DNA of 64,000 nt, taken from Sphingorhabdus sp. Alg231-15. Its GTDB lineage: Bacteria; Pseudomonadota; Alphaproteobacteria; Sphingomonadales; Sphingomonadaceae. Below are positions 14,866 to 31,025 of the stretch, piece by piece. Within the stretch, counting starts at the first letter, position 1, and each line of letters opens with the position of its first letter. The DNA is taken from positions 2,660,001 to 2,724,000 of the forward strand of contig NZ_LT703001.1 in the NCBI RefSeq assembly GCF_900149705.1, given 5' to 3'. A model generated the notes under the pieces. It was given only the letters and a program-made list of their open reading frames with translations. It ran no database searches and was not told the origin of the DNA. Both the position numbers and the translations under genes were made by a program.

Positions 14866-14896
14866 AAAAGGGCGCCGATATTGGCGCCCTTTTTCG
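14866..14896 (+). terminator. Rho-independent terminator
   Basis: Perfect stem GGGCGCC (14870-14876) and GGCGCCC (14883-14889) with a 6-base loop and a following T-run. It ends the rightward transcript of the small basic gene and faces the leftward gene at 14934. Confidence 0.85.
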
Positions 14897-14933
14897 TTTT
14901 AGTGTTTATCTTTAAACATGCGAAATTTCTCGC

Positions 14934-15389
14934 TCACTGCATCAGCGCCGCTTCTTCAGCCAATGCAATCGCTTCAAATAGGACATAGGCTCTGGGCTCA
15001 TCATCAAAAACGCGTCGGGGTGGCGGCACATATCGCGCGAGAGCAGGATGCCGCTTTGCAATATGAACAGCTTCGACTTGCTTGCTTGGGTGGCGCTGGA
15101 TGCGACCAATGGTCACCGCCTGCGTTTTGCTGGTTTCGGCGACCTCAGAAAGTGATTTCAAAATTCCTTTCGTGCGTGATGATTTCCTATGCGCAGTTGT
15201 AAGATTTTCGCATACAAAAATATCTGGTTCGAACCTGTCGATCATCTTCTTCGCATATGTCGCGGCGAGTTCCGGTGACCGTGCATATTTGACGCTCATC
15301 TCCCAATGGAGCAAATCGTGTCTTATCAGACAGACAGTACCCAATTGTCCAGATCGCGAAGCAATCGCCGTCATTCTATCCCATTTCAT
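14934..15389 (-). CDS. Possible RNase H-fold/RuvC-like protein
   Basis: A 151-aa protein of uncertain family. The order of predicted strands (TAIASRSGQLGTVCLI, then PDIFVCENL with an acidic residue ending a strand, then a late FDDEPRAYVLFEAIALA helix) resembles small RuvC-like resolvases, but the first catalytic Asp is not evident, so this is a weak structural guess. Its start overlaps the XRE regulator by 14 bp, so the two are one operon reading leftward. Confidence 0.55.
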   Translation of the reverse strand: MKWDRMTAIASRSGQLGTVCLIRHDLLHWEMSVKYARSPELAATYAKKMIDRFEPDIFVCENLTTAHRKSSRTKGILKSLSEVAETSKTQAVTIGRIQRHPSKQVEAVHIAKRHPALARYVPPPRRVFDDEPRAYVLFEAIALAEEAALMQ

Positions 15390-15726
15390 CCGATCCTTCT
15401 TCAGCGGCTAATCGCTCTTCTAGTTTCTGAAGCGTTGCCTCTCTTCTCAAACCGTCGGCTCCCTGACTTCCGATATGCGAAATTTCTGTAATACGTCCCC
15501 GGAGCTGCTCGCGTGCTTCACCGAGTATTTCGGCAAAAAATTGTTCAAAATTGCGGCCATAGATTAGAGAAAGCGTGCAAATATGTTCGATACTTGGCCG
15601 GTAGCGACCATTTTCAAGATCAGATAAGGTGGCTTGGGCAACGCCTAAAAGCTGCGCGACGTCACGCTGCATCAACCCGGATTTTTTGCGCGCAAGACGC
15701 AGATCAAAAGCAAATTGTTTTGACAT
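15376..15726 (-). CDS. XRE-family transcriptional regulator
   Basis: A 116-aa protein with an N-terminal HTH_3 domain: DLRLARKKSGLMQRDVAQLLGVAQATLSDLENGRYRPS, the canonical Cro/CI recognition layout, ending near residue 60. The C-terminus is helical and charged. It overlaps the following RuvC-like gene. An inverted repeat ATCGGT-ATG-ACCGAT centred at 15804, about 75 bp upstream of its start, recurs before the coupling-type ATPase at 17080 and near 18245; these are its likely operators. Confidence 0.88.
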   Translation of the reverse strand: MSKQFAFDLRLARKKSGLMQRDVAQLLGVAQATLSDLENGRYRPSIEHICTLSLIYGRNFEQFFAEILGEAREQLRGRITEISHIGSQGADGLRREATLQKLEERLAAEEGSDEMG

Positions 15727-15779
15727 ATGTGAATGAACTTATCGACTAACCCATCCAGTTTAGGATGATTACAGGTCCC

Positions 15780-15811
15780 GCCATAGGGGACAGCATATCG
15801 GTATGACCGAT
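15780..15811. promoter_or_regulatory. Operator-like repeat, copy 1
   Basis: The core AGGGGACAGCATATCGGT runs into the inverted repeat ATCGGT-ATG-ACCGAT (15797-15811). The first 23 bases match copy 3 at 17002-17024 at 22 positions. It lies upstream of the leftward XRE operon. Confidence 0.6.
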
Positions 15812-15841
15812 TTCGACCGCCGCCCCCTCAATATGAAAAAA

Positions 15842-15914
15842 ACCAGCGCGTCTCGATGGATGCGAGAGGCCGAAAAGGTAGAAACCTTTTCGGATCTACT
15901 TCGAGCGCGCTGGT
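15842..15914. ncRNA. Strongly structured element (possible small RNA or cis-element)
   Basis: Outer arms ACCAGCGCG (15842-15850) and CGCGCTGGT (15906-15914) are perfectly complementary. Inside are CCGAAAAGG/CCTTTTCGG (15870-15878 and 15885-15893) around a 6-base loop, and TCTCG/CGAGA (15851-15855 and 15863-15867). CTCGA (15852-15856) can instead pair with TCGAG (15901-15905), extending the outer stem and breaking the small hairpin. Two exclusive folds in a gene-free stretch suggest an RNA switch, a transfer or replication origin, or a recombination site. Strand cannot be decided. Confidence 0.45.
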
Positions 15915-15983
15915 GGTTCTTCTCGGCGGCGGCGGTCGCCCAGTGTGTCAGATGAACAGATAATCGCAAATTCTCGGCTTAAA

Positions 15984-16004
15984 GCTAGAGGGCAGCATAT
16001 CGAT
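15984..16004. promoter_or_regulatory. Operator-like repeat, copy 2
   Basis: GCTAGAGGGCAGCATATCGAT shares the GGGCAGCATATCG core with copies 1 and 3 in the same orientation but lacks the right arm of the inverted repeat. Between here and 16293 I find no convincing gene. Confidence 0.45.
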
Positions 16005-16293
16005 CGTTCCCTAGCATTAACTCATTATGACACAGCATCGCGCGCAATCTTACAGACTATGTGCAAAGCGCTGATCGGTGGAAACGCGATATCGATCTTT
16101 GCGGGTTCTTGGGTTCGCTTTTGGCCCAGCTGCGCGCCTTGTCAACCGCCTTCGCTTCCGCGCGTTGCTTGTGCAGCTCCAGGCCCTTACGGGCGCATGT
16201 CGCGCGGTGTGACTAGCCACTTTTCGCTTGGCCTTTTTGGCTCCCATGAAGCCGCGGGATGGTCTCGCGGTATCAATTTTTCAGGAGCTTTTC

Positions 16294-16503
16294 ATGACCA
16301 ATCAATCTCAATCTACTACCGGCATGCCTTCGCATCGTCTTTACCGCGTTGATGGGGATGGCGAGAACGCCAATTGGACCGACATTGGTGCTGCCTGGCC
16401 GAATAAAGACGGCCTTGGCTTTTCTGTCATCTGCCACGCAGTTCCGATGCGTGGACGCATGGTATTGCGCGCTATCAAAGAACGAGAGCAAAACGAAAGC
16501 TGA
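16294..16503 (+). CDS. Small conserved mobile-element protein, 69 aa
   Basis: Starts at ATG 16294 with AGGAGC upstream; an in-frame start at 16228 would add residues without a ribosome site. The protein has the pattern YRVDGDGENANWTDIGAAWP then GFSVICHAVPMRGRMVLR, a compact fold known as a hypothetical family on alphaproteobacterial plasmids and islands. The biochemical role is unknown. It converges with the DUF3768 gene on a shared hairpin. Confidence 0.65.
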   Translation: MTNQSQSTTGMPSHRLYRVDGDGENANWTDIGAAWPNKDGLGFSVICHAVPMRGRMVLRAIKEREQNES

Positions 16504-16512
16504 ATACAAAAT

Positions 16513-16539
16513 CGGCCACTCCTTTTTCGGGAGTGGCCG
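16513..16539. terminator. Bidirectional hairpin terminator
   Basis: CGGCCACTCC and GGGAGTGGCCG flank TTTTTC, between the converging genes ending at 16503 (+) and 16544 (-). Confidence 0.7.
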
Positions 16540-16543
16540 CAAT

Positions 16544-16891
16544 CTAATATTCACTTGCCAGCATGATCGTGAGCACGCGATGTGTCTCCGTTTCGCATGC
16601 TGGATCATTCGAGGCGTTTTGTAGGCTGGGATCGTAATAGTCGATCTTCCAAAACAATCGCTGGCCATCCAAGTCGAACGCGCCAAAATCATGCTCACCA
16701 TGCGGATCATTGTCATCCGTGAAGCGATCAAAGTCGCGCACCTGTTGCAGCGCTTTGACGCCAAATTCGTAGCCCCGATCTTGAATGCCGTTGGTTACGA
16801 AAACCGATCCTTGGCCAAGTCCATGGCAGCGCAGTCGGTCATTGAGCCGTCTGATCTTGGCTGTTTTATGATCTTCATCTGTTTCAGTCAT
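16544..16891 (-). CDS. DUF3768 family protein
   Basis: A 115-aa protein matching DUF3768: RRLNDRLR near the start, VTNGIQ, then FDRFTDDNDPHGEHDFGAF, LFWKIDYYD and a C-terminal RVLTIMLASEY. The family is frequent on alphaproteobacterial plasmids and islands and has no known function. The start at 16891 has AAGGGA upstream; the longer in-frame start at 16936 lacks one. Confidence 0.88.
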   Translation of the reverse strand: MTETDEDHKTAKIRRLNDRLRCHGLGQGSVFVTNGIQDRGYEFGVKALQQVRDFDRFTDDNDPHGEHDFGAFDLDGQRLFWKIDYYDPSLQNASNDPACETETHRVLTIMLASEY

Positions 16892-17001
16892 GAGCGTCCC
16901 TTTCCATTGGATGCGCCAAAACCATTTCAGGCGCATCCCCTGAAAAAGGACGCTTCAACCATGGAACTCTTCTACGCTCAGAATAGCAAAGCAAGATAGC
17001 G

Positions 17002-17036
17002 GCCATAGGGGGCAGCATATCGGTGACACCGATATG
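17002..17036. promoter_or_regulatory. Operator-like repeat, copy 3
   Basis: The same leader as copy 1 is followed by a perfect palindrome CATATCGGT-GAC-ACCGATATG (17016-17036). It ends 43 bp before the start codon at 17080, a typical operator/promoter position. Confidence 0.65.
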
Positions 17037-17079
17037 CGCGCCTCTACAGAAAACGGACTCTCCGCCTCACAATATCGGC

Positions 17080-18234
17080 ATGCATCATAAACCCAATACG
17101 GTGACGCAGCTTGGTCTCGCCTATCATCGCTATGGTGATCGCCGCTTTGGTATCTATCAAGCCGACCGGCTTCATCATCTTTATATCATTGGCCAGACTG
17201 GAACCGGAAAATCCACTTTGCTCGGCAATCTGGTGCGTCAGGATGTGAGCCAGCAGCACGGCTTTTGCCTGATCGACCCGCATGGCGATTTGGCATCGGC
17301 GCTGGCAGACGAATTAGGCGATCATGCTATTTACTGGTCTATTGCCGATGAAAATTCACCCTATGGCTATAATCCGCTCACTCGTTCGTCGGCTCAATTG
17401 CGCCCGCTAATCGCTGCGGGATTGATCGAAACCCTCAAGAAGCAATGGGCCGATAGTTGGGGTGCGCGCATGGAGCACCTATTGCGCTATGCCGCACTGG
17501 CGCTTCTGGAACAGCCCAGCGCAGACATCAGCGAAATCGTACCGCTATTCGTTGATAAGGATTTTCGGCGCTCCGTTGTGGCAAAGGTTACTGACGAGCA
17601 AGTCCGTGCTTTCTGGACCCAAGAATATCCCAAAATGAACTATGCTACTTCCATCGATGGTGTCTCACCAATTGCGAACAAGCTTGGCGCTTTTCTTGCC
17701 AATCCTCGCATCCGCCGCGCTTTATGTACGCCTGAAAAACCGCTGCGATTTCGAAAGATTATGGACGATGGTCAGGCGCTGATCGTCAATCTCGCAAAAG
17801 GCAAAATTGGAGCAAGCAGCGCCAATGTGCTCGGTGGTCTCATCGCCGCTAACATAATGCATGCCGCTTTCTCACGCCATGACATAGCCGAAAGCCAGCG
17901 CCGACCTTTCTTTCTTTACGTCGATGAATTTCACTCGCTTACTTCCACCGCCTTCGCCGATCTGCTTCCCGAAGCCCGTAAATATGCGCTGGGTCTAGTT
18001 TTATCTCACCAGCATATTGGACAGACCGATCGCGATATTTTTGATGCGATTATCGGCAATGTCGGCAGCATCATGGCTTTTCGGGTGGGAGCGAGAGATG
18101 CAGGAGTTCTTGCCAAGCAACTGGATGGTCTGTCGCCAATCAATTTGCAGAGAATGCCAAACTATCACTGTTCCGTGCAGTTGATGGTTGGCGGTCAAAA
18201 GAGCCGGATATTTTCTGCCCGGACGTCATTCTAG
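17080..18234 (+). CDS. Conjugative coupling-type ATPase (VirD4/TraM-recognition family)
   Basis: A 384-aa P-loop protein. Walker A is GQTGTGKST (38-46), LIDPHGDLA follows near residue 80, and Walker B is LYVDEFHSL with a later LVLSHQHIGQ, all typical of the VirD4/TraD type. It has no transmembrane segments, so it is a soluble, short version. I chose ATG 17080 because the palindromic repeat 17016-17036 falls inside the longer frame from 17023 and looks like an operator. A second coupling-type ATPase lies at 9842; two in one element is unusual. Probably part of a mobilisation module with the replication-relaxation protein. Confidence 0.78.
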   Translation: MHHKPNTVTQLGLAYHRYGDRRFGIYQADRLHHLYIIGQTGTGKSTLLGNLVRQDVSQQHGFCLIDPHGDLASALADELGDHAIYWSIADENSPYGYNPLTRSSAQLRPLIAAGLIETLKKQWADSWGARMEHLLRYAALALLEQPSADISEIVPLFVDKDFRRSVVAKVTDEQVRAFWTQEYPKMNYATSIDGVSPIANKLGAFLANPRIRRALCTPEKPLRFRKIMDDGQALIVNLAKGKIGASSANVLGGLIAANIMHAAFSRHDIAESQRRPFFLYVDEFHSLTSTAFADLLPEARKYALGLVLSHQHIGQTDRDIFDAIIGNVGSIMAFRVGARDAGVLAKQLDGLSPINLQRMPNYHCSVQLMVGGQKSRIFSARTSF

Positions 18235-18446: not shown

Positions 18447-19967
18447 ATGAAACGATGCTACGGTTATGTCCGCGTCTCCACTGTCAAACAGGGGGAAGGA
18501 GTTTCTCTAGACGCACAAAAAGAAGCGATCAGCGACTTTGCCCGCCGCAATGGTTTTGACATTATCGAATGGTTCAAAGAAACTGAAACTGCCGCCAAGC
18601 GAGGCCGTCCGCGTTTCAATGCGATGCTTGCCGCCTTGCGCCGAGGCAAAGCAGACGCCGTGATTTTCCACAAGATTGATCGCTCTGCTCGTAACTTCAC
18701 TGATTGGGGAAAAGTAGGTGATTTGATCGATGCCGGAATTGATGTACGTTTTGCCCACGAAGATATGGACATGCGCTCACGCGGCGGACGTCTCACAGCC
18801 GATATCCAGGCGGTCATTGCCGCTGATTATATTCGAAATCTCAAAGATGAAATCCGGAAGGGTATAAACGGCCGCCTCAAACAGGGGCTTTATCCATGGC
18901 CTGCGCCGATCGGCTACTTGAACAATGGTGGAGGCAAGCCAAAGACTCTTGATCCCAAGACCGCACAGTTAATTCGTGAAGCGTTCGAGCTTTACGCAAC
19001 TGGAGAACATTCGTTTAACAGCTTGCTTCTTGAAATGCGCAAACGCGGTCTGAGCGGTCGCCAAAATGTCAAACTGTCAATGCGCGGACTTGAGACGATC
19101 ATCAATAACCCCTTCTACTGCGGTATCATCAGAATAAGAAGCACCGGAGAAACTTTTGACGGAGTTCATGAACCGATTATTCCTGTGTCGCTTTTTGAGC
19201 ATGTCCAGCAGTTAAAATCGGACAAATGCGGCAAGAAAGTCACGCGCCATAATCACATCTTTCAAGGTTTGTTTCGTTGCGGCTTATGCACCGGACCAAT
19301 GGTACCTGAACTTCAGAAAGGCCATGTCTATTATCGCTGCAAACGCCGTGAATGTGTAACAACCTCGGTCCGCGAGGAAATCATTGAAGAACAAATTCGG
19401 AAACTATTCGAACAGATTCGATTGGAAGAAAACGCGATTCATAGAACCATGGAGCAGGTGGATGCGTGGGTAAACCAACGGGCGAGTGGGTTTGTTGATC
19501 CCAAGAATTCGATCTTACTGGCAGAGGCTGAAAGCAAAATGGAACGCTTAACCGATGCATTGATCGATCGTCTTATCGACCAGGAAACTTATTCTAAGCG
19601 AAAAACGAAGATCCAGTTTGAGATCACTAAACTGAAGCAGGAGCGAGCCAAGGCCTCTGATTTACGTCAGAAAGCGGTAAAAATTCGAGAAGTGGCCGAA
19701 CTCGCAAAAAGCCTTGGGAATGCATATGATTTGGCAAATCGGACTCAGAAACGTCAATTGGTCAAAATCGGATCGTCGAACCGTCATGTCATCGAAAAAG
19801 ACGTCTATTTAGCACCCTCAAATTGGGTAAAGAGAATAGAAGATATGGTGCTTACCTTCGGTGGTGAACCGCATGGGGGTGATGGCCGAACCGCAGAAAC
19901 AGACAAGTTGTCTAATGATTTCACTAAAATATTATTGGATGTAGAATCGCTTAATACAAATACCTGA
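18447..19967 (+). CDS. Large serine recombinase
   Basis: A 506-aa site-specific recombinase. The N-terminal resolvase domain has YGYVRVST (catalytic Ser11, Arg9), then AVIFHKIDRSARNF with the conserved Arg. Next come the recombinase domain (residues about 150-280) and a zinc ribbon, FRCGLCTGPM...YYRCKRREC, near 290-315. A coiled-coil segment follows (about 380-420). This is the layout of integrases that move phages and mobilisable elements. It is a second recombinase besides the tyrosine integrase at 35748, suggesting a nested or formerly independent element. No att site could be fixed; the 160 bp that follow hold no gene. Confidence 0.93.
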   Translation: MKRCYGYVRVSTVKQGEGVSLDAQKEAISDFARRNGFDIIEWFKETETAAKRGRPRFNAMLAALRRGKADAVIFHKIDRSARNFTDWGKVGDLIDAGIDVRFAHEDMDMRSRGGRLTADIQAVIAADYIRNLKDEIRKGINGRLKQGLYPWPAPIGYLNNGGGKPKTLDPKTAQLIREAFELYATGEHSFNSLLLEMRKRGLSGRQNVKLSMRGLETIINNPFYCGIIRIRSTGETFDGVHEPIIPVSLFEHVQQLKSDKCGKKVTRHNHIFQGLFRCGLCTGPMVPELQKGHVYYRCKRRECVTTSVREEIIEEQIRKLFEQIRLEENAIHRTMEQVDAWVNQRASGFVDPKNSILLAEAESKMERLTDALIDRLIDQETYSKRKTKIQFEITKLKQERAKASDLRQKAVKIREVAELAKSLGNAYDLANRTQKRQLVKIGSSNRHVIEKDVYLAPSNWVKRIEDMVLTFGGEPHGGDGRTAETDKLSNDFTKILLDVESLNTNT

Positions 19968-20151: not shown

Positions 20152-20478
20152 ATGACTTCATCAAATCTCACTCCTGAAGTTGAAGCGGTGTTTCGCAAAA
20201 TTTCTACAAAGCTGGCGGCCGGTAAGGTCCCCACAAAAACAATCGAGTCTCTGAGTAAGGAAATTCATTCTTCAAAATCTGAGGTGATTGGGATCGATAT
20301 TTGCCAAATGGGAATTTGCATCGATGTTGAACTAGAGCAATCTATTGATGAGATTGACCTGAAAAATGTACTGAAGCCATTTTCCGGAGAGATTCAAAAT
20401 ATAGAAATTTTCCCCCTCGGGATTACTCTTCCTGAGCGTCTACGAGTGCGAATTACAAAGTCCATCGAAAACCTCTAG
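20152..20478 (+). CDS. Small protein preceding a radical SAM enzyme, 108 aa
   Basis: Starts at ATG 20152 with GGGGGC upstream; the frame could extend to 20128. The protein is charged, without signal peptide, and holds two Cys in DICQMGICIDV near residue 50. I know no family. The radical SAM gene begins at the base after its stop codon, so they are tightly coupled. It may be the substrate, a substrate-presenting partner, or a regulator of that enzyme; nothing in the sequence decides between these. Confidence 0.65.
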   Translation: MTSSNLTPEVEAVFRKISTKLAAGKVPTKTIESLSKEIHSSKSEVIGIDICQMGICIDVELEQSIDEIDLKNVLKPFSGEIQNIEIFPLGITLPERLRVRITKSIENL

Positions 20479-21441
20479 ATGACATTGGTACGATCAAAAA
20501 TTATACATATACACCCAACAAGAATGTGTAATTTCCGTTGTAGTCATTGTTACTCCCAGTCAGGGCCCCTTCAAGAATCCTTTTTACCTGCAAATACAAT
20601 TTTGCAATTCACAAGCAAGTTGAAGGCACTGGGTTATACTAGGATTAGTATATCGGGTGGTGAACCCTCTGTATATCCGGAAATCGAAAGGCTGTGCAAA
20701 GGGTTGAAGGACCAATCCTATGGGATTTCTGTGATCTCTAATGGTTGGCAGACACGCCGACTTTTGGCTTTAGTCAAACTCGGGCTGATTGATGAAATAT
20801 CAGTTAGTTTTGATGGGCTTCCCGTCCAGCATGATAAAATAAGGGGACGACTAGGTTCATTTAAACGAGCTATTCTGGCGGTGTCTGAATATTTGGATGT
20901 TAAGACAATAGTCGGCGCCGTTGTATCCGTCAGCGGCAACAATCTTCAGCATATTCCCAATCTTGTTGATGTTCTTGCAGCGACTGATCTTGATAGAATT
21001 CAGCTACATCCTTTAGCATTGACTGGACGGGCCGCATCGGGCCAGTCTGGCCTACGAGATCTCGATGGGCATCAGTTGCTTGCGCTCTTAATCAACGTTC
21101 GCATCTTCCAGGAATTGTATCCTAACGTAAGTTTTCATTGTGACGCCGTTGCGTCGGAGCAATTGGCTCATTTATCACTCCCAAAAAAGGGCGACTTGAT
21201 ATCTCCTTTGGTAATCACTGAAACCGGAAATCTGTTGCCAATCTCTTATGACCTGGATTCCCGATTCAGTTTGGGTAATATCTGCCAGCACTCCAATCAA
21301 TTTAGCTTTAGCCGATGGCATATTGAGCGAATAGAAACGGCTCGTGGAAGATGTCAAAAAGCGCCAGCATCAACTTATTACGCTGAATTGACTAGCGCTT
21401 TCAATGAGTTAGGGAATGAAGAAATTGGAGTGATAGCCTGA
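20479..21441 (+). CDS. Radical SAM enzyme
   Basis: A 320-aa enzyme with the cluster motif RMCNFRCSHCY (Cys17, Cys21, Cys24) that binds the 4Fe-4S cluster and SAM, then ISISGGEPSVYPE (GGE motif) and SVSFDGLP. Proteins of this type modify peptides or proteins. The C-terminal third has three scattered Cys (HCDAV, ICQHS, RCQKA), so a degenerate SPASM-like region is possible but a full auxiliary-cluster domain is not evident. It starts right after the small protein and is followed 22 bp later by a trypsin-like protease. The clustering suggests a modified-peptide or protein-modification system, though the target is unknown. Confidence 0.88.
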   Translation: MTLVRSKIIHIHPTRMCNFRCSHCYSQSGPLQESFLPANTILQFTSKLKALGYTRISISGGEPSVYPEIERLCKGLKDQSYGISVISNGWQTRRLLALVKLGLIDEISVSFDGLPVQHDKIRGRLGSFKRAILAVSEYLDVKTIVGAVVSVSGNNLQHIPNLVDVLAATDLDRIQLHPLALTGRAASGQSGLRDLDGHQLLALLINVRIFQELYPNVSFHCDAVASEQLAHLSLPKKGDLISPLVITETGNLLPISYDLDSRFSLGNICQHSNQFSFSRWHIERIETARGRCQKAPASTYYAELTSAFNELGNEEIGVIA

Positions 21442-21463
21442 TGTTTGGTTGGGGTACGTCTGC

Positions 21464-22507
21464 ATGAGCCAAGCACTAGAAAAATTTAGTGTCGAGGAAT
21501 TGCGTACAATTCTTGATGCAAGGCGATATAATAGGAAATTTGATGATCCCGTAGATTGGTCGATTGAAAAAGATCAAGACCACAGTAGTGGCGTGTTTTG
21601 CGGTATTGAAGATACTGTATTCACAAGCCTTCCCATTGGCCAAGATGATATGCCCGGCATATCAACGGAGGTAATTTTCAGTCATCTCCACAAACGTCAG
21701 AAAGCCCTGTATGGAGAAGATGATCGCACCGAAATTGTCGATGTGATATCTGAAGTTCATCGAGAAGCAGCAAGATCTGTCGCTGCAGTTATTAAACAAA
21801 ACGACATTGTTGCCATCAGTGATACCCAATCCTCTATCGGTTCTACTAGTCTGGGCGTAAAACGCGCTCTTGCGGGCAAACCGCTGTGCAGCCGTGAACC
21901 GTTTAAAGAGCAACCTTCAAGTGCCATTGGGACAGCTTTTCTGGTTGAACCAAATGTCGTTGCAACCGCTCACCACTGCATAAATGAACAAAACATCGAG
22001 AGTGTAAGGTTGATTTTCAATTTTGAAATTGATTCCTCTGGGCTCGCGCCAAGTCTTGTCGATGCGGAGAACATTTATGCGGCCACCGAATTCATGGCTG
22101 GGGATTATGTTGAAATGGGAGCTGACTGGTCACTAATTAAACTCGACCGACCAGTGGAAGGTCGGATCCCTTTGACGCTTCGCAAAAATGGGCGAGTACC
22201 TGATAGTACACCACTTTACGTGATCGGTCATCCGCTGGGGCTTCCCAAAAAATTCGCTGGGAATGCGCAGGTCCGTATCAATGATCAAGATGATTTCTTC
22301 GTTGCCAATTTAGATACATTTGGTGGCAATTCGGGCTCTCCCGTTTTCAATGCACAAACGAACGACGTCGAAGGGATCTTGGTTCGAGGTGAAACGGATT
22401 TTGCTCCTCAAGGGGATTGTTTTGCATCGTTAGTGTGCCCCGTTGGCGGTTGTCGGGGCGAAGATTGCAACCGCATTGAGCCAATTGCTCGAATTATCAA
22501 CAATTAA
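21464..22507 (+). CDS. Trypsin-like serine protease with N-terminal extension
   Basis: A 347-aa protein with a full chymotrypsin-fold triad: His171 in ATAHHC, Asp221 in GADWSL and Ser290 in GGNSGSP. The first 145 residues are a helical extension (EKFSVEELRTILDARRYNRKFDD at the start) of unknown family, with no signal peptide, so the enzyme probably acts in the cytoplasm. Cytoplasmic trypsin-like effectors with N-terminal adaptor domains occur in bacterial conflict systems, and this protein could be one. I chose ATG 21464 (GGGG upstream) over TTG 21449. The PAD gene begins 22 bp after its stop. Confidence 0.85.
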   Translation: MSQALEKFSVEELRTILDARRYNRKFDDPVDWSIEKDQDHSSGVFCGIEDTVFTSLPIGQDDMPGISTEVIFSHLHKRQKALYGEDDRTEIVDVISEVHREAARSVAAVIKQNDIVAISDTQSSIGSTSLGVKRALAGKPLCSREPFKEQPSSAIGTAFLVEPNVVATAHHCINEQNIESVRLIFNFEIDSSGLAPSLVDAENIYAATEFMAGDYVEMGADWSLIKLDRPVEGRIPLTLRKNGRVPDSTPLYVIGHPLGLPKKFAGNAQVRINDQDDFFVANLDTFGGNSGSPVFNAQTNDVEGILVRGETDFAPQGDCFASLVCPVGGCRGEDCNRIEPIARIINN

Positions 22508-22529
22508 TGAAACAAATGGAATATTGGGA

Positions 22530-24509
22530 ATGGAAAAAGTAACTTACATCACGAGTATCCCTGGAAAATATGAGTATTTCTCGCTCGAAGCAGCGACCGG
22601 TCAACTTGAATTCGATGTTACTGGTGATTTTCAAATACTTGCAATTCGCCGGTCAGATGGAAAACCCGAGCGGCTTCCTAAAAAACAGAAAATTGATGTA
22701 AATTTGTACTTTGCCACAGATTTCGTAGTTCAAACAAAATTAGGTCAGCCGACGGTTGCCGAAATTGAATTTTCTCACATAGCAGGGGCTAACGATCATT
22801 CATTTAAACTCAAGGTTATCGTTGCCACTCTAATGCTGGATTGCGATGCGGACCGAGATGGAACGGTAGGGCTAAATGAGGAGGGTAAGGCTAATTGGAC
22901 CTGGGGCGAAGAAGGTCGCGGCGCTATGGTTCTGGTCGATAATGATCGGGATCCACTAGTTGGCGGGTCAAACTATTTAGACGAACGTGAGCCAATTGAA
23001 ATTAGGTCACTGGGCATCAAATCGCTACCTCAAGGAGTTGAGCTCCAACTTAGCACGGCTGCTGAAGGCGCTATGAAATTCTCTATTTTTCGGAAGGATG
23101 GAGTTGGAGTTCAAAAGGTTATCGGTCGGGCACCAAACGAACCAATTCAAGATACACTCACTACTGGAATAGTAAGCTATAGCGGAGAAAAATTGTATAT
23201 CGCTGCACATGAGTATCCAGGTCCATATTTTGAGGGACTGATATTGCTCAATCTCGAACTAGTTGACCTTAACAGTGGCAGTAGAGTGGTTCTTGCCCAA
23301 GATCGGATAATGATGCGTGTTGCGCCATGGATTATGACACCGAACACTCAACCAGCGGTAAAAATCTATACAACTGAGATAACGAAAAATGGAGATAATT
23401 CGAAATTCCTGAAGGGGTTGAAATCTGCTGTAGCGGCAGAGGGATTAGTTTTGGAAGTGATTCAAGAGAAAGATCATCGCGGTGATCGTTGGATTCAAGA
23501 TGAGATCGAGATCGGTTACACTGAAAATCATCGAGGAAGCTTGCCCGTTGTTTTTGATAGTCCGAGAGATCGTGGACTAGATGACTACCCTGAAATGAAA
23601 ATGCTTGGCCCAGATTTCGGCCACTTTGTCGTGGGCGGAGGGGTTGAAAATTCCCTGGATTCTTTCGGAAACTTAGAAGTTTCTCCCCCAGTGGTTGTTG
23701 CCGGGGAGGTTTTTCCGCTGGGTAGAGTTATTGTGGGTGGTCGAAAAGATGCAGATTTTTCCCACTCTTCTAGGCAGATGATGGCTGAAATTCGGCAGTT
23801 TCTTTATGCGCAGAAAGTACAGTTTCCCTTTGAATTGTTTACTGATTGGTTGCAAGTTGCCCATGTGGATGAGATTGTCTGTTTTGTTGAGAACGAAACT
23901 GCGGCTCAGGGGTTCAAGACGCTTGTAGCTAGTCCCCGAAAAACCCTCTCCATACTCGAGGATCTTTCAACAAATGGCTATGGAAGCGAGATTCTTTTTG
24001 CCGGAAAAAAGAGAGAAAGTGTTACCGGGCACACTGCTGAAGTATCCGTTGATCAACTACTTGCGGATAAAGAGTTTTGGAAAGCAAATGAGGTTTTCCA
24101 AGGCTACATGGATGACAATGTTGCAATTCTCCAGAAAGAACTCGGTCTTGCTGAAGCCGATATTGTAGAGATTCCCGTTTGCTTCCAAGATTTGCGGGAT
24201 GACCAGAACAATCTAAGAAGAACTTTGGCTTTTTTCCCAGATATGGTTAACCATTTGGTACACAAGGACCTGAGTATTGTACCAAAACCATATGGTCCAA
24301 TAATTGATGGCAAGTGTGCATTTGAAGAGGCATTCGAAGATGCACTACCGGATCGTCGCATGATCTTCATCGACGATTGGTACTCTTACCATGAAAAAAG
24401 TGGAGAGGTGCATTGCGGCACTAATGCGCTCAGGAAGCCATTTGCCGTATCAAAATGGTGGAAATTGAAGCCAGAAGGTGGATATGACATCAAAACTACT
24501 GGGATATAA
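22530..24509 (+). CDS. Animal-type peptidyl-arginine deiminase (PAD)
   Basis: A 659-aa homologue of vertebrate PAD enzymes, which convert protein arginine to citrulline with calcium. All catalytic residues align: Asp324 in RWIQDEIEIGY, His445 and Asp447 in GHVDE-like VAHVDEIV, Cys629 in GEVHCGTN. Other animal-like stretches include SFGNLEVSPPVVVAG, VVFDSPRDRGL and RKPFAVSKWW. The middle domain has DCDADRDG and VDNDRD, where PADs bind calcium. An N-terminal domain of about 95 residues comes first. Bacterial PADs of this three-domain kind are known in cyanobacteria and some other bacteria. No secretion signal is seen. I start at ATG 22530, not 22443, because the longer frame overlaps the protease. 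It sits between a protease and another pentein-fold enzyme. Confidence 0.93.
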   Translation: MEKVTYITSIPGKYEYFSLEAATGQLEFDVTGDFQILAIRRSDGKPERLPKKQKIDVNLYFATDFVVQTKLGQPTVAEIEFSHIAGANDHSFKLKVIVATLMLDCDADRDGTVGLNEEGKANWTWGEEGRGAMVLVDNDRDPLVGGSNYLDEREPIEIRSLGIKSLPQGVELQLSTAAEGAMKFSIFRKDGVGVQKVIGRAPNEPIQDTLTTGIVSYSGEKLYIAAHEYPGPYFEGLILLNLELVDLNSGSRVVLAQDRIMMRVAPWIMTPNTQPAVKIYTTEITKNGDNSKFLKGLKSAVAAEGLVLEVIQEKDHRGDRWIQDEIEIGYTENHRGSLPVVFDSPRDRGLDDYPEMKMLGPDFGHFVVGGGVENSLDSFGNLEVSPPVVVAGEVFPLGRVIVGGRKDADFSHSSRQMMAEIRQFLYAQKVQFPFELFTDWLQVAHVDEIVCFVENETAAQGFKTLVASPRKTLSILEDLSTNGYGSEILFAGKKRESVTGHTAEVSVDQLLADKEFWKANEVFQGYMDDNVAILQKELGLAEADIVEIPVCFQDLRDDQNNLRRTLAFFPDMVNHLVHKDLSIVPKPYGPIIDGKCAFEEAFEDALPDRRMIFIDDWYSYHEKSGEVHCGTNALRKPFAVSKWWKLKPEGGYDIKTTGI

Positions 24510-24576
24510 AAAGGCGAGAAAGTGATCGCAGATTTCAAGTTGCAAACTTTTTCTAATAAGCGATTGGAGTTCATCT

Positions 24577-25968
24577 ATGTCTGAACCAAAAGAAATTTCC
24601 AATGGAGCCTCTTCCCGATTTTTAGAACCGCGCACTCAAACAGATTCATGGGTAACTGAAAAGACATTGCGTGACCGGGCTATCACATTCTCTCTATTGC
24701 CTGAAAAATCAATAGAGAAACTTGAAAAGCCTTCTTTGATTTCGAGCGCACATGGAAAGATTACGGGCATTTTGATGACACCTCCTTGGTGGTTGTTCAT
24801 TGAAAAGGGGGATTTTGACCCAATAGATTTTGCCGATACTGAAATTGCAAAAATAAAAATTGAGCGCGACACTCTATTTAGTATCATTAAGGATCTACCT
24901 TCAGGGACGGAGATAACATTTCTGACAACGGAAAATGTGATGAACTCGGGAACTCTAGTTTTTTCGCCGGTCAAAAGGCTCGAAGCCATTTTAAAGCAAG
25001 TAGGTCGCAAAGATTCTTCCAAGATCATTTCCGCACCAGACGGCTTAAAACACTCTGTCTGGGCTGAAGACGCCTACGCCATGTCAAATGATCTAAGTGA
25101 TTCCGAAACCTTTTTTGTAGAGCCAGCGTCTTTTAGGCGCGGAGATGACGCTCTGATAGCAGATCTCGTCGCTTCTAAGAGCTCAATCATACAAAGTCAG
25201 ACCAATCTATATTTTCAAGGCGGAAATATTCTTATTGGTGATGATTTCTGGTTCATCGGAACTGACTATCCGAAAAACTCTTTAACATTAGGCTATGTCA
25301 AACCTCAAAATGGTGAAACTGAAGTTGAAGCGGTCACGCGAGCGTATTCAGATGCACTCGACCACGATCGAAAGTTTATTCAAATTGGTTCTCGTCTTCC
25401 TGTTCCAAGTGAAATTGAACAGCGATTCATTCTCCATGGTGAGGTATGGTCTGAAAAATTATATCGGGCAAATAAAACTGGAACGGCGCAACCTCTATTT
25501 CACATTGATATGTTTCTAACTCTAGGGGGCCGCGATGACGACGGGCGCTATCGAGTGTTTGTTGGCGATCCTGATATGGCTGCTGGTATTTTGGGAGAAC
25601 AGACCAGTCGATATGCTATGGCGTCGATCTTCTCAGATATAGCAGATCAGCTTGAAGCCATGGATTTCAAGGTTGTTCGAAATCCTCTACCCCTTACGTA
25701 TATTGACGACCCGTCAGAAAAACATCGGTCTTGGTATTTTGCCACATCGAACAATGCACTGGTTGAAATCGATGATCAGAACAAAACGGTTTGGTTGCCT
25801 ACTTACGGACATAGAATTTGGCCAGAGTTGAAGAAGACTGACGATGCAAATAAGGAAATCTGGAAAAGCGAAGGGTTTAAGGTAATTCAGCTCGGTGATT
25901 TTCATCCCTATGCTGAAAATCTCGGTGCAGCGCATTGTATAACCAAATATATTGACAGAACCCGTTAG
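24577..25968 (+). CDS. Pentein-fold (guanidino-group-modifying) enzyme
   Basis: A 463-aa protein with the pentein residue pattern: VWAEDAY (161-167) in the acidic position, LYFQGGNILIG (211-221), HIDMF (His309, Asp311) and a C-terminal AAHCITKY with Cys454 as nucleophile. Agmatine deiminases, arginine deiminases and PADs share this fold. The length exceeds agmatine deiminase by roughly 90 residues, mostly at the N-terminus. It follows the PAD gene by 67 bp on the same strand, so two different guanidine-modifying enzymes sit side by side. The substrate could be a protein, free arginine or agmatine; the sequence alone does not say. Bases 25969-26202 hold only a weak hairpin. Confidence 0.82.
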   Translation: MSEPKEISNGASSRFLEPRTQTDSWVTEKTLRDRAITFSLLPEKSIEKLEKPSLISSAHGKITGILMTPPWWLFIEKGDFDPIDFADTEIAKIKIERDTLFSIIKDLPSGTEITFLTTENVMNSGTLVFSPVKRLEAILKQVGRKDSSKIISAPDGLKHSVWAEDAYAMSNDLSDSETFFVEPASFRRGDDALIADLVASKSSIIQSQTNLYFQGGNILIGDDFWFIGTDYPKNSLTLGYVKPQNGETEVEAVTRAYSDALDHDRKFIQIGSRLPVPSEIEQRFILHGEVWSEKLYRANKTGTAQPLFHIDMFLTLGGRDDDGRYRVFVGDPDMAAGILGEQTSRYAMASIFSDIADQLEAMDFKVVRNPLPLTYIDDPSEKHRSWYFATSNNALVEIDDQNKTVWLPTYGHRIWPELKKTDDANKEIWKSEGFKVIQLGDFHPYAENLGAAHCITKYIDRTR

Positions 25969-26202
25969 TTAAGCGCGCGGCTGACAACCTTTCATTGCAT
26001 AGAAGAGAATTTCTGAAGCACGGGAGGTAGATTTTCCGTAATTTGCGTTAGTATTCGCTTTGTTTGCTGCTTCTCATGCAATGAAATTCACTTTATGTAT
26101 GGTTTGAAGGCGGGACTTAAATTTTGACCCGCCCCCCAATCCAAGCTAGTGCTTCGCTCAATCCATCACTATATTTTATCGTCCACCCTATTAATGAGTT
26201 GA

Positions 26203-27429
26203 CTAGATAAACAATTCAGAAGCGGGGAGACTATCATCAGCTTTACGAGGGGGAACTACAAAAAATCCCGCGGCGCGCACTCTGAGTAGATTGGCCATTC
26301 CCGGGAGTTGATTGTTTGGATCGCCTCCGAAATTCACACGACCTAACCAGCCTGGAATTTTGAGCATTCCCAAAATTCGTTCAGGCGTATCTTGAAAGCT
26401 GATGAAGTTGAGCCCAAGTTGCGGGCAACCTTTTGCGTCAATACCTTCTAAGAATTCATATCCTTGGCGATAAACCAATCTAGACTCTGGATCTGCCGGT
26501 GTCGAACGGCCTTGGTTGGCCCTATGGATGTGAGAAGATCGAAGTGTTGCATCAAAGGCAGGGCGGGGCGCAAAACGAAATCGTTCATTTTGGCCATCTT
26601 CGACCGTCCCACCGGCATTCGCTGGACAACCGCTTATAGGCTGGATTCCGCCATTTGCATCGGCAACTAAGGGGCATCCCGAAACCATATCTCGTCCAAC
26701 TAGTTGCTCTTTTTGTGATCTTGAGAGTTTTTGCCAGCTAGAAATATCGACGGCGATCCGCATGTAACAAAGGTACGTTCCATTTTCTTTCCAGTTATCC
26801 GGCGCGTCTCCTGACCTCTCCTTTATCTCTATGGCTCCAAGGCGTTGCTCGGAACGCAGATTTGAAGTGCCATCGAAAAAATCAATCCAGCTTCTGCGAT
26901 CTTCGCGGCCAAATCCATTGAAGCTAGCATTCAATCGCAGTGGCGCGGGCTTATTGAAACTATCTTGAAAACGATCAATTGCTTTCCATGTCTCTACCAC
27001 CGCTCGTCGAACTGACAGAGCAGTCTCACCGGTGAATTGGATCGCTAAATCACAATCAGCAGGATTCTCTGCTACATCCGAATCAAAACTTAAGCCTGCC
27101 CCTAACGAGATCGGGCCTCCTCCACCAACTCTCGGCTTGCGAAAAGGGCGCAACTCCGAAGGTCGAATCGAGTCTTTAGAGAGCGAGTCGAAAAATCTGC
27201 TGCCAAAGCCAATAAGAACGGTTAACCCACTAGGGTCAACGGTTGTCCCAGGCAAATCATGGACTTGTCCAGTCTTTAATTCGGTGAGCGTTTCCCAGAT
27301 TTTCTCGAGACAGGCTTGAACATCAAGGGTCTGTGGTGAACCAACGACATTCAAAAACACAACGGAAAAATGCGGGGGGGGCGATTCCCCACTCCTGAAG
27401 TGAATTCCCTCCTGTATCTGATCACTCAT
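26203..27429 (-). CDS. DyP-type heme peroxidase
   Basis: A 408-aa peroxidase. The DyP motif appears as FFDGTSN (the GxxDG loop) and the proximal heme ligand as SHIHRANQG. A C-terminal LNFISFQDTPERILGML block is also typical. It has no Tat signal and no encapsulin gene nearby, so it probably works in the cytoplasm. The start at 27429 lies one base after the upstream gene's stop; the longer frame from 27459 would overlap it. It is co-transcribed with the unknown gene at 27431-28825. The substrate is unknown. Confidence 0.88.
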   Translation of the reverse strand: MSDQIQEGIHFRSGESPPPHFSVVFLNVVGSPQTLDVQACLEKIWETLTELKTGQVHDLPGTTVDPSGLTVLIGFGSRFFDSLSKDSIRPSELRPFRKPRVGGGGPISLGAGLSFDSDVAENPADCDLAIQFTGETALSVRRAVVETWKAIDRFQDSFNKPAPLRLNASFNGFGREDRRSWIDFFDGTSNLRSEQRLGAIEIKERSGDAPDNWKENGTYLCYMRIAVDISSWQKLSRSQKEQLVGRDMVSGCPLVADANGGIQPISGCPANAGGTVEDGQNERFRFAPRPAFDATLRSSHIHRANQGRSTPADPESRLVYRQGYEFLEGIDAKGCPQLGLNFISFQDTPERILGMLKIPGWLGRVNFGGDPNNQLPGMANLLRVRAAGFFVVPPRKADDSLPASELFI

Positions 27430-27430
27430 T

Positions 27431-28825
27431 CTAAATCTCGTCCTCGCGTGCCTCCTCATACTCGTCGCGGAGTCTAGTTAGCTTTCGACAAATCGGGGCC
27501 TTCGCACAATCGTAGTCCTCGTCTAGAGCTTCTACCTCAAACCGCTCATACTCGTCATCGGTTACGTCAGATTGAGACCCGATCCTGAGCCATGGGCCTA
27601 CTTCTATTCTTTGAGCAATTTCGAAGCCCCCTTGTACAGGAAGCTCGTCATCGCCGACCGTAATCTCGTCAAGAAAATGTGGTGAGTCATCAGGTGGCCC
27701 GAATTCAAGTCGCTGATAAAGCTGATCGCCGGAGCCGCGCGAGAATCTTATCCAATCACTTGGCAAAGTATTTCCTTGGAAAAGAAAATCTGCGTCAGCA
27801 AACGACATGATATACATTCCTAGTGGATTAGCGAACCCTAGTTTACGGCCTTCAAACGCCTGTTTTGCTGCTTTCGTTGCAGCTTCTGGATCAGCGTGTC
27901 TACAGGCAAGTTGAATTGGCGGTAACTCTTCTCCTTCGAAATATGTCTTGCTGAAAATTTCATCCTTTGTCGCTGGGACCCAATCTGAACCGTCCTTTCG
28001 TGCGTATGGATGGGCCCCGTAAAGGACGATGTACAGCAGGTCATCCAACCCATTAATCCGATGAGTCATGAATAGTGCGTTTAAGTTGTTTAACTCGCCG
28101 ATCGGATGAATTGGAACGCCTGCTTCCATTAGGTCCCTGTCACCCCCACCGCCAGAGACCCAAGTGGCAAACAGAATGAGGCGCTGATTTTCCGTCAATT
28201 CGCTCGGATCTTCAACGCCGGGCCCATACAACTCCGTCCAATCCACGTCGCGCCCAAGAACATCATAACAGGCACACTTCAAGCGATCCGGTGCGTAAGT
28301 CGCGAGCGTCATCCAGTATTCACGCAATTCTGTTGTAAAGACCACACGTTTGGCTCTAGGAGGTTGGCCTTCCTCTTTATGAAAGATAATCCGATACTCA
28401 CAGTATTCATTGTGGGTCTCGCGTCTTCCTTTGGAAGAGAGCGCGCTATGTACAGGGTGCCCAGACTTTATTCGCCAATTCGATAACTCGCGGGCCGCCT
28501 CAATACCAAAACAAAAATTTGGCTCGGCCGGATCCGCCGCCCAGCGTACATCTGGAGTATCATTCCCGTCTGATATTTTCGTGCTGTCGATGGCAAAGAA
28601 CCTGCTATGGTAGTCCGACAGATCTTCAAATTCATTGACAATCCGTCTGTTCCAAATCGCTTTCAATTCCTCGCTGTCGAAATCGTCAACACCGCCAGGG
28701 GCATCGTATTCAGTAATTGGGCTATCGTCTTCGGCGGATGTCAAATTTGATGACATCGACTTATTTTTTAAACCCAGCACCTGCGCACTAAGCGGTTTTG
28801 TTCTATCAATATCTCGAAACGCCAT
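27431..28825 (-). CDS. Uncharacterised protein partnered with the DyP peroxidase
   Basis: A 464-aa soluble protein of no family I recognise. It begins MAFRDIDRTKPLSAQ with a very strong AAGGGGGGAA site before ATG 28825, so I prefer this to 28849. The first 50 residues look disordered and acidic; later come aromatic-rich segments such as NEYCEYRIIF and REYWMTLATYAPDRLKCACYDVLGRDVDW, and an acidic C-terminus. Its stop and the peroxidase start are one base apart, suggesting a functional pair, perhaps a substrate or partner protein for the peroxidase. Confidence 0.7.
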   Translation of the reverse strand: MAFRDIDRTKPLSAQVLGLKNKSMSSNLTSAEDDSPITEYDAPGGVDDFDSEELKAIWNRRIVNEFEDLSDYHSRFFAIDSTKISDGNDTPDVRWAADPAEPNFCFGIEAARELSNWRIKSGHPVHSALSSKGRRETHNEYCEYRIIFHKEEGQPPRAKRVVFTTELREYWMTLATYAPDRLKCACYDVLGRDVDWTELYGPGVEDPSELTENQRLILFATWVSGGGGDRDLMEAGVPIHPIGELNNLNALFMTHRINGLDDLLYIVLYGAHPYARKDGSDWVPATKDEIFSKTYFEGEELPPIQLACRHADPEAATKAAKQAFEGRKLGFANPLGMYIMSFADADFLFQGNTLPSDWIRFSRGSGDQLYQRLEFGPPDDSPHFLDEITVGDDELPVQGGFEIAQRIEVGPWLRIGSQSDVTDDEYERFEVEALDEDYDCAKAPICRKLTRLRDEYEEAREDEI

Positions 28826-28973
28826 ATTTCCCCCCTTTACCTTATTCAATTTGACTCATTTTTTTTCATTAATTTATCATGAACATAAAAAAGACAATTG
28901 TGAAGCTTGATTCAACACAAATATTGAATTTTAATGTTCTAAGAAAAATTACTAAATTCCTTGGAGAATGCTA

Positions 28974-30881
28974 ATGGGCCTAGAAGAAAAAACAATTCCT
29001 TGGTACGAAAATATTGATGGAACTCTTCAATACTCAAGGCGCGGCCCAGAAGTTCATTTATCTGTTGTCGAATTGCCTTGGGCTATACTGACTGAAAAAT
29101 CAGCAGTAGAACTTAAGGGGTTTCAAAAACTCAAGAAACTTTCTCTTAAAGGTCGACATTTCGCGATGCGGCAAATCAAAGTCGGTGACCTTGATTTGCT
29201 ATCAGGAACTAGTGAACTTGAATCACTTTCTTTTAATGGTGCTTCGCTAGACGCAGACTTGTTAAGTAGTATATTTTTGAACTTGACAAATCTGGAAGAG
29301 ATTGATGTCCGCGGTTTGGCGATAACTCCGCAAGTTCTTTCAACAATTGTCACTTCGTGTCCACATCTTAGGGGGCTCTCGGTAGGTTGGGCCAAAGAGG
29401 GCAATGACCATTCATTCGCACCATACGATCTTGGTGCTGCAGTTCTGGCAGAAACTTCGCATCTTGAAAATCTGTCTGCCTTATCGGTGCGCGGCCTATC
29501 GATTGCAGATGCTGACATTGAAGTACAACACAGTTTCTCTCGGTTAAGGGATATCGATGTAGCTGATACGAATATTACTTCAGCCGGACTGAATGCCCTA
29601 GGAATGCACGGTGGTCTGGAACGGATTGTTATGGACAATTGTCCCATCGACGACGATTGTGCACCAACTCTTGAAGCAAATTCAGATCTGCATACGCTGA
29701 GCGCAGAGGGTAGCCGCATATCTGATCCGACGCTAGGCGTCCTAAGTAATCTATCTAGGCTGGCCTACCTGAACGTCTCTTCGACTCCTGTTACAGATGT
29801 GGGATTGGCGCAACTTGCAGGACTCCCAAATTTGCGCGTCCTAAAGGCTGCAGGTGTCGAGTTCTCTGCATCAGCAGTTGCAGATTGCGTCATTCAAACT
29901 CCTTCACTCCGGTCACTCTACATGGGTAAAAAGGTTTTTTCTGCAGCGGATCTGCCGAATTTGGAGACACTAGATGAGTTGGAACTAGGGGTCTATCCCG
30001 ACCAATCCGTGCTAAATACTCTAGCGACCCTTGATGCCCAAATAGATCTAACGATGTTCGGATCCCCCGCAGGCAATTTTAAAATGCCACCTCGCCTGAG
30101 AGAACTTCGACTCGACACACAAATGAGTCGAGATATCATTCGTTCGATTGCACCACTTAGATACCTTAGAAGTTTGTCGTTTAGGGGAAACGCTCAGTTT
30201 CTCGCGGAACTCAATGATGGTGATCTACCTGGCTTAAGGAATTTGCTTTCACCAAGTTCTAATCTAGACGATACGACACTTGCCCGCCTTGCACAGCTCC
30301 CCAGCCTAGAGTCGCTCTACATTTCCGACAACCCCATATCGGAAGCTGGCATAACGACACTAGTGGGCAATCCATATCTCCATACTTTGGAACTGAGAGC
30401 TATCTCCCTCAGCACGAATATAATTGAGAAGTTACTAACGCTCCCCTCGTTGCACTGCCTTGACATACCAGGTACCGGCCTTCCGCCGAGTTCGGTAGCA
30501 CAACTTGGCGCTGCGCCAACACTGCAGTCGCTAGCCATTGATCAAAGTCAGTTGGCAAAAGAGGCAGTTGAAGGCCTAGCATCGTTGCCGACTTTGATGG
30601 AGTTATACTTGTACGGCGATGGCTATACCAAAGAGTCCCTCAAGCTTCTGAAGCACTTACCTTTTCTCAATGAGATTGTCTTGGTCGACAGAACCCAGCC
30701 AATTGCAGTTGACGAGGTATCTGCTTTCTTTGATATTCAACACTTGCGGCATATTAATGGACCAATTGAACCGGAAGCGCGGAAGGCGCTCGCAAAGGAA
30801 CGCCCGGAAATCTATGTAAATGGATTGTCCTCCAGGCCTGCAGGAAACAAAAGCGGACGAAATTCATTGGCAACTTTTTGA
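28974..30881 (+). CDS. Leucine-rich-repeat protein
   Basis: A 635-aa protein made almost wholly of LRRs of about 22-26 residues (for example LRGLSVGWAKEG, LAYLNVSSTPVTDVGLAQLAGLPNLRVLKAAG, LESLYISDNPISEAGITTLVGNPYLHTLEL). No signal peptide, membrane span or enzymatic domain is present, so it is probably a cytoplasmic recognition protein. I start at ATG 28974 since GGAGA is 6 bp before it; ATG 28968 is in frame. It is divergent from the DyP operon across a 150-bp AT-rich region. A hairpin without a good T-run at 30971-30991 may end it. Confidence 0.85.
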   Translation: MGLEEKTIPWYENIDGTLQYSRRGPEVHLSVVELPWAILTEKSAVELKGFQKLKKLSLKGRHFAMRQIKVGDLDLLSGTSELESLSFNGASLDADLLSSIFLNLTNLEEIDVRGLAITPQVLSTIVTSCPHLRGLSVGWAKEGNDHSFAPYDLGAAVLAETSHLENLSALSVRGLSIADADIEVQHSFSRLRDIDVADTNITSAGLNALGMHGGLERIVMDNCPIDDDCAPTLEANSDLHTLSAEGSRISDPTLGVLSNLSRLAYLNVSSTPVTDVGLAQLAGLPNLRVLKAAGVEFSASAVADCVIQTPSLRSLYMGKKVFSAADLPNLETLDELELGVYPDQSVLNTLATLDAQIDLTMFGSPAGNFKMPPRLRELRLDTQMSRDIIRSIAPLRYLRSLSFRGNAQFLAELNDGDLPGLRNLLSPSSNLDDTTLARLAQLPSLESLYISDNPISEAGITTLVGNPYLHTLELRAISLSTNIIEKLLTLPSLHCLDIPGTGLPPSSVAQLGAAPTLQSLAIDQSQLAKEAVEGLASLPTLMELYLYGDGYTKESLKLLKHLPFLNEIVLVDRTQPIAVDEVSAFFDIQHLRHINGPIEPEARKALAKERPEIYVNGLSSRPAGNKSGRNSLATF

Positions 30882-30970
30882 ATCCATCGTTTCGACGCCA
30901 TTTCGCCATCTATTTCCTCGAAGCCGATTTCGAACCGTTTCGACTACCACTATTTGCAGGTTGAAAAAGT

Positions 30971-30991
30971 AACCACCCATATAGGGTGGTT
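30971..30991. terminator. Weak hairpin after the LRR gene
   Basis: AACCACCC and GGGTGGTT form a perfect 8-bp stem with a 5-base loop; no strong T-run follows on the plus strand. Possible terminator or decay-protecting hairpin. Confidence 0.45.
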
Positions 30992-31025
30992 ATAAGTTCA
31001 TTTTTGATTAGTTCTTCCTTTTGAT

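Follow-up and report, generated by a model that had tools for sequence, protein, structure and literature searches.

A trypsin-like protease gene paired with an animal-type peptidyl-arginine deiminase gene in Sphingorhabdus: a candidate protease-coupled effector pair

Bacterial gasdermins are accompanied by trypsin-like or caspase-like proteases, with the gene for the protease beside the gene for the effector. To our knowledge, the tailoring of peptides is the one physiological role that has been established for peptidyl-arginine deiminases (PADs) in bacteria. Bacterial PADs have already been described (Cummings et al. 2021, PMC8826395), as have trypsin-NucA conflict systems and radical S-adenosylmethionine (SAM) peptide add-ons (Kaur et al. 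2020, PMC7159879). In this study we analysed a stretch of 64,000 nucleotides from Sphingorhabdus sp. Alg231-15 (the window; bases 2660001-2724000 of contig 1 in a genome of 3.62 Mb), which carries a run of five genes, g1 to g5, at 20152-25968. The protease gene of this run, g3, stands directly upstream of the PAD gene, g4, and this pair recurs in the closest relatives of the PAD.

Two peptide patterns, run against genome_contigs (84,980 species), matched 108 stretches, 16 of them with PAD relatives, a number that is a lower bound because no cyanobacteria are among them despite the published cyanobacterial PADs (PMC8826395). Fourteen genes of the window (20152-35552) were compared against these 16 loci. 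At the Ruegeria locus a relative of g3 (53.6% identity over 278 residues, tblastn) ends 14 bp before the PAD gene, and at the Pseudorhodoferax locus another (46.2% identity over 346 residues, tblastn) ends 28 bp before it; the gap in the window is 22 bp. Besides the window PAD, a tree of 18 rows took in one Streptomyces plasmid PAD, the human PAD1 C-domain and all of the 16 loci but one, the third Methanophagales row. The PADs of the window, Ruegeria and Pseudorhodoferax form a 100/100 clade with no further members, and the protease is directly upstream of the PAD in all three. The human C-domain falls inside the same 14-row set (98/95) as the window PAD, in a tree that holds no cyanobacteria and in which long branches, including the human row, were flagged. 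Ruegeria and Pseudorhodoferax belong to different proteobacterial families and classes, and the pair appears to have been inherited as a unit within a single PAD clade that covers Roseobacteraceae and Comamonadaceae. Chance adjacency of the two genes is unlikely because the g3 family is rare in the searched genomes: at E<=1e-20 it was found in 2 of 385 genomes of the class, 1 of 396 of the order and 1 of 398 of the phylum, where the own genome is included each time and the three draws overlap. The initial annotation had proposed all five genes as a candidate undescribed system, and this is supported in part. The linkage of protease and PAD has stood, and the order g3-g4 recurs at both loci, whereas the set of all five genes was not found elsewhere in the genomes and plasmids searched; a joint five-gene system is not supported, as searches with g1, g2 and g5 showed no recurrent linkage to the pair.

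The PAD catalytic domain of g4 scores 422.5 bits against a curated cut-off of 25 (PF03068). Searches against solved PAD1-4 chains gave E values from 3.1e-111 (PAD1) to 9.6e-102 (a PAD2 row), and the inactive PAD6 is a weaker match than PAD1-4. Identity to the PAD1 C-domain is 45.9% over 410 columns. The residue table shows that g4 keeps QDExE, AHVDE, HCGTN and SLDSFGN, which holds the calcium-switch Asp, together with the acidic block of PAD_M, so that the resemblance to vertebrate PADs through the catalytic motifs, as first annotated, holds. The roles of the catalytic and calcium-switch residues are taken in part from PMC8826395. Collectively, g4 is a PAD with its catalytic motifs, for which calcium-dependent protein citrullination is predicted. 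PAD genes are uncommon: at E<=0.001 a match was found in 2 of the 385 genomes of the class, and only the own genome is above the cut-off.

Other PADs among the 16 loci are of interest in their own right. The calcium-switch Asp and about 100 N-terminal residues are present in PADs of Vibrio, Bowmanella, Paenibacillus and actinobacteria (L012-L018; in L015 the Asp was seen and the N-terminus was not read). In addition, three loci from metagenome-assembled genomes of Methanophagales archaea (L009, L010 and L011) carry PAD genes with 45-46% identity to the window PAD, which sit 3' of TGL-like genes (Pfam TGL 3.2e-98 in L010, by sequence in L009 and L011); two animal-style protein-modifying chemistries are thus found near each other.

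The protease g3 is an S1 serine protease by its family match and its triad of His171, Asp221 and Ser290, invariant in five aligned family rows, and proteolysis is predicted. Four cysteines near its C-terminus (Cys319, Cys325, Cys330 and Cys335) are likewise invariant in the five aligned members. The catalytic domain is preceded by K-x-x-Y-G-x-D-x-R, and K80 and the YGxDxR motif are kept in 5/5 aligned members. The YGxDxR motif resembles the N-terminus that glutamyl endopeptidases of bacteria have in their mature form, which suggests, by analogy, that g3 could be activated by cleavage after the invariant Lys. The family profile matches trypsins in the PDB at about 1e-5 to 1e-4 and V8-type or glutamyl endopeptidases at 6e-4 and above. 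All five family members have an Asp aligned with the Asp189 position of trypsin, a position placed with the help of the PDB-profile alignment. Similarity of g3 to trypsin-NucA proteins is weak (E 2.4e-6 and 9.0e-6), and PADLOC gave partial matches to protease-bearing models, with a best value of 5.1e-8. The other match in the class, distantly related (E 6.5e-58), has an N-terminus that looks exported and lies close to a gene that appears caspase-like/WD40-like by eye. Four genomes of the same genus lack the g3 family, and therefore recent import or frequent loss has to be assumed. A shared docking motif was considered and rejected: a loose pattern found an N-terminal helix motif in four of five protease-family open reading frames (ORFs) and one M14 ORF, and not in the partners.

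Table 1. Positions, strands and supporting evidence for the genes of the run and its neighbours in the window
Feature	Positions	Strand	Length (amino acids)	Evidence
g1, orphan protein	20152-20478	+	108 (116 from ATG 20128)	no Pfam, NCBIfam or PADLOC match
g2, radical SAM enzyme	20479-21441	+	320	PF04055 6.7e-18; CxxxCxxC motif
g3, S1-fold serine protease	21464-22507	+	347	Trypsin_2 1.2e-15
g4, animal-type PAD	22530-24509	+	659	PF03068 2.1e-126; PF08527 (PAD_M) 6.8e-16
g5, divergent second pentein-type enzyme	24577-25968	+	463	tblastn relatives; catalytic columns
g6, DyP-type haem peroxidase, convergent neighbour, possible accessory	26203-27459	-		PF20628 2e-16; PF04261 2e-6
g7, DyP partner, no Pfam family	27431-28849	-		DyP-adjacent relatives on plasmids
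Tyrosine integrase	35748-36884	-		PF00589 2.9e-10; PF13356 1.2e-17

As the initial annotation had stated, the five genes are closely spaced on one strand: all are intact ORFs, with successive gaps of 0, 22, 22 and 67 bp from the preferred starts. These are the starts of Table 1 (for g1 alternatively 20128); the ATG of g3 lies within a TTG ORF from 21449 and that of g4 within a TTG ORF from 22443. The absence of a signal peptide from the protease was also confirmed, and a Kyte-Doolittle scan found neither a signal peptide nor a segment resembling a transmembrane helix in any of the five proteins (highest 19-residue mean 1.52). Promoter and terminator scans were close to the shuffled background (20 versus 13.7 +/- 3.8 and 13 versus 9.0 +/- 3.0, respectively). 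The structure prediction proposed as a check yielded no interpretable model: single-sequence AlphaFold2 runs reached a mean predicted local distance difference test score of 47 for g1 and 39, too poor to use, for g5.

The small protein g1 gave no match at E<=1 in a tblastn search of plasmids. At E<=1e-22 the radical SAM protein g2 was found in 1 of 372 class genomes, namely its own. Its identification as viperin was rejected; the PADLOC pVip matches (1.4e-17) cover residues ~8-140 only, and several other radical SAM families of NCBIfam score better, all below their cut-offs. For g5, which the initial annotation had called a further guanidino-modifying enzyme, the pentein assignment comes from its family, g5 itself having no Pfam match: two of the six family members match PF04371 PAD_porph (best 5e-10), and W162, D165, H309, D311 and C454 are invariant in all six aligned. 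Of these, D165, H309, D311 and C454 are taken as the catalytic columns. A PDB profile gave weak matches to agmatine deiminases (0.045). There is thus support for calling g5 a second pentein enzyme, although the similarity is distant, and its enzyme function is predicted. The g5 family was found in none of nine other PAD genomes, in a search run without a positive control.

Relatives of g3 and g5 on plasmids show shuffled partners. Four plasmid records carry g3 relatives, of which three were examined; the fourth, also from Bradyrhizobium and of equal identity, was left out. The Mesorhizobium relative is a larger, distant trypsin-like protein (28.1%, partial). On the Rhizobium sophoriradicis plasmid a trypsin-NucA fusion lies upstream of the g3 relative, and the order is protease, LodA-like, radical SAM, ferritin-like, possible FAD protein and C25 peptidase; beyond the latter, on the other strand, are a DyP, a g7-like gene (E 1.8e-6) and an animal-type haem peroxidase (An_peroxidase, E 7.6e-9). 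The order in Bradyrhizobium septentrionale is tyrosinase, S8, protease, C25, ferritin-like, radical SAM and halogenase. The radical SAM proteins of these Rhizobium and Bradyrhizobium clusters match g2 weakly (E 0.012 and 1.8e-4), and neither of the two plasmid records contains a PAD (plasmids were searched, chromosomes were not). The LodA-like label comes from blastp and from weak profile matches (0.0049, 0.021 and 5.6e-5) to proteins that are neighbours or relatives. A module of LodA-like, radical SAM and ferritin-like or LodA_C-like genes recurs on rhizobial and Streptomyces plasmids (L031, L032 and L034), and is possibly a radical-SAM-matured quinone-cofactor oxidase.

Relatives of g5 occur on six plasmid records, five of which were examined. 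In Paenibacillus polymyxa the relative adjoins a relative of the trypsin-NucA fusion; in Vibrio maritimus no protease is among the annotated neighbours; in Rhizobium daejeonense it lies beside YcaO and TfuA genes; in Neorhizobium the gene order is similar but without YcaO/TfuA annotation; and in Aureispira it lies between type III-B CRISPR and TIR genes. The DyP/g7 pair recurs on Rhizobium leguminosarum and Streptomyces plasmids, and the Streptomyces pair adjoins the radical SAM/ferritin-like module. The pieces represented by g3, g5 and DyP/g7 appear to come from one gene pool that shuffles around peptidases. A PAD together with radical SAM, g5 or DyP was seen at no other examined locus.

The surroundings of the run in the window contain genes of mobile elements and candidate defence genes. 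A serine-recombinase-like ORF, recognised by eye, lies at 18447-19967, and a conjugation-type ATPase (9842-12022), a HerA-like ATPase and a PLD-domain protein are also present. The PADLOC candidates PDC-M21B and PDC-M21A (12079-13361) are strong matches (9.2e-102 and 7e-73). A phage origin was considered and rejected: scans of viral_contigs gave no relative of the PAD, the protease or g5. Three genes on one strand at 31610-35184 may form another signalling unit built on a protease: they encode a caspase-domain protein, a protein that is response-regulator-like by eye, and one of histidine-kinase type. Past the integrase, at 37508-57266, lie, all of them recognised by eye, an ABC transporter, a type I secretion-type adaptor, two small ORFs and a 4787-residue repeat protein. 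Elsewhere, the Ruegeria pair has an integrase-like ORF upstream (by eye), and on its other side, at 12413-17596 and on the opposite strand, an M14 carboxypeptidase, two trypsins and an S8 subtilase.

We favour, tentatively and with a probability of about 0.42, the explanation that the protease and the calcium-gated PAD form a cytoplasmic effector pair, a protease-coupled conflict arrangement whose accessories are interchangeable. From these data we infer zymogen activation, a calcium trigger, an effector role and the accessory status of the other genes. The protease would probably be made as a zymogen, with an N-terminal segment of ~55-80 residues ending at the invariant Lys and YGxDxR, and the PAD would be silent at resting cytosolic calcium. 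Thus held off at rest by the pro-segment and the need for calcium, the pair could be turned on by damage or invasion, either through a membrane breach by phage or conjugation or through an upstream signal that processes the protease. The PAD would then irreversibly convert arginine to citrulline in host or invader proteins, and the protease may process the PAD itself, the proteins that the PAD targets or those that citrullination has loosened. The genes g1 and g2 (possibly for a modified peptide), g5 and the DyP/g7 pair would be interchangeable local accessories. A conflict role is plausible by analogy from the context of mobile-element genes, candidate defence genes and the peptidase/nuclease clusters of the relatives.

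Several points weigh against this explanation. The linkage of g3 and g4 is observed, and their function is inferred. The pair is known in three instances only, and 14 of the 16 PAD loci (L009-L022) lack a g3-like protease at E<=1 in the available locus DNA, which is short for some (in L009 the PAD starts 1.7 kb from the end) but includes upstream DNA in each; a PAD therefore generally needs no such protease. Only one of five neighbours of the Pseudorhodoferax pair has a Pfam match, an upstream Vsr gene, and the peptidase and mobile context is for this reason not common to all three pairs. The profile of g3 gives no cleavage specificity, as trypsins and glutamyl endopeptidases alike match it. 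No convincing att repeats were found in the window (the longest exact direct repeat is 16 bp, inside g1 and g5), so that the borders of the region are undefined and 'mobile region' refers to gene content rather than to mapped ends. PADLOC gave no match for the PAD and no model that matches the pair, and linkage of g1, g2 and g5 to it was not seen again in the genomes and plasmids searched.

That the region simply holds unrelated mobile cargo, with the pair serving to turn over proteins or to salvage arginine and the other genes there by happenstance, is unlikely. It agrees with this lack of linkage of g1, g2 and g5 and with the many unlike genes of the region, but it does not account for short-gap adjacency of protease and PAD in three genera, or for relatives of g5 and DyP/g7 that adjoin trypsin-NucA or radical SAM genes elsewhere. 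A pathway like those for ribosomally synthesised and post-translationally modified peptides, in which g1 is the precursor, g2 introduces a radical crosslink, g3 trims the leader and the PAD and g5 deiminate arginines of the product, is clearly unlikely. Here the precursor size of g1 directly before a radical SAM gene, the YcaO/TfuA neighbours of the g5 relative in R. daejeonense and the like, though not so annotated, order in Neorhizobium are suggestive, as are the PADs that tailor citrulassin lasso peptides (PMC12971885) and the radical SAM, peptide and peptidase add-ons of conflict systems (PMC7159879). However, the pair recurs without g1- or g2-like genes alongside, a Pfam scan of g1-g5 found no transporter, and g1 has no recognisable leader or core and no relatives in Pfam or the plasmid tblastn search.

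Decidedly improbable is a guard model, in which g3 is a toxic protease and the PAD removes arginine sites, thereby shielding self proteins or holding the protease in check. Tight pairing with the protease first is in line with it, as is the Asp at the Asp189-aligned position, which in a trypsin would mean cleavage after Arg or Lys. Specificity for Arg is nevertheless not established while glutamyl endopeptidases also match the profile, calcium gating would make the PAD a poor standing antidote, and two of five protease relatives are on plasmids without a PAD, chromosomes lying outside that search. The most far-reaching version, and a very improbable one, is a bacterial neutrophil-like toolkit, in which PAD, chymotrypsin-fold protease, haem peroxidase and non-specific nuclease would belong to one shuffled arsenal. 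As a last resort and on a calcium trigger, these would execute a death programme in which citrullination, proteolysis and oxidation take apart DNA-protein complexes of the nucleoid or of phages. Its components are at hand in the DyP of the window, the DyP and An_peroxidase of the Rhizobium cluster and the NucA of the relatives.

The favoured effector-pair explanation has consequences beyond this locus. A protease-PAD operon in mobile DNA offers an assayable hypothesis for why bacteria retain an animal-type, calcium-gated PAD, and if it is true, arginine deimination joins the effector chemistries of bacterial conflict systems. Moreover, the phyletic range of calcium-switch PADs is widened, which bears on the origin of animal PADs; with L012-L018 it extends beyond the cyanobacteria emphasised in PMC8826395 and bears on the donor of the animal gene.

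Among known systems, those of bacterial gasdermins follow the same protease-effector logic, with a pore as the effector there and an enzyme here. The three-domain PADs of clade Ai (PMC8826395) share with g4 the catalytic residues, the calcium-switch Asp, the acidic PAD_M block and an N-terminal region of ~100 residues; they are animal and cyanobacterial, whereas g4 is non-cyanobacterial and paired in an operon with a protease, and the proteobacterial PADs of that paper are assigned to an outgroup clade. The PADs that tailor citrulassin lasso peptides (PMC12971885) are likewise bacterial PADs that work with other modifying enzymes, a likeness by description only, and the difference is that no lasso precursor or cyclase was recognised at g1-g5. 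No prokaryotic protease-PAD system was found in the titles and abstract starts of open-licence PubMed Central articles, and the main text of PMC7159879 does not contain the terms 'deiminase', 'pentein' or 'peroxidase'. The nearest described relative is System 3, NucA-trypsin, of Kaur et al. (PMC7159879), which also combines a trypsin-like protease with a macromolecule-attacking enzyme and has several peptidases per locus. Its trypsin-like peptidase core is present in g3, and the trypsin-NucA fusion in the Rhizobium cluster of a g3 relative and the relative of that fusion beside the Paenibacillus g5 relative add to the likeness. The NucA domain (PF01223) had no match in g1-g5, the five following genes and ten other window genes. 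The effector of System 3 is a NucA-type endonuclease and the partner here is a PAD, and we rate the protease-PAD pair as a new effector chemistry in a protease-coupled arrangement.

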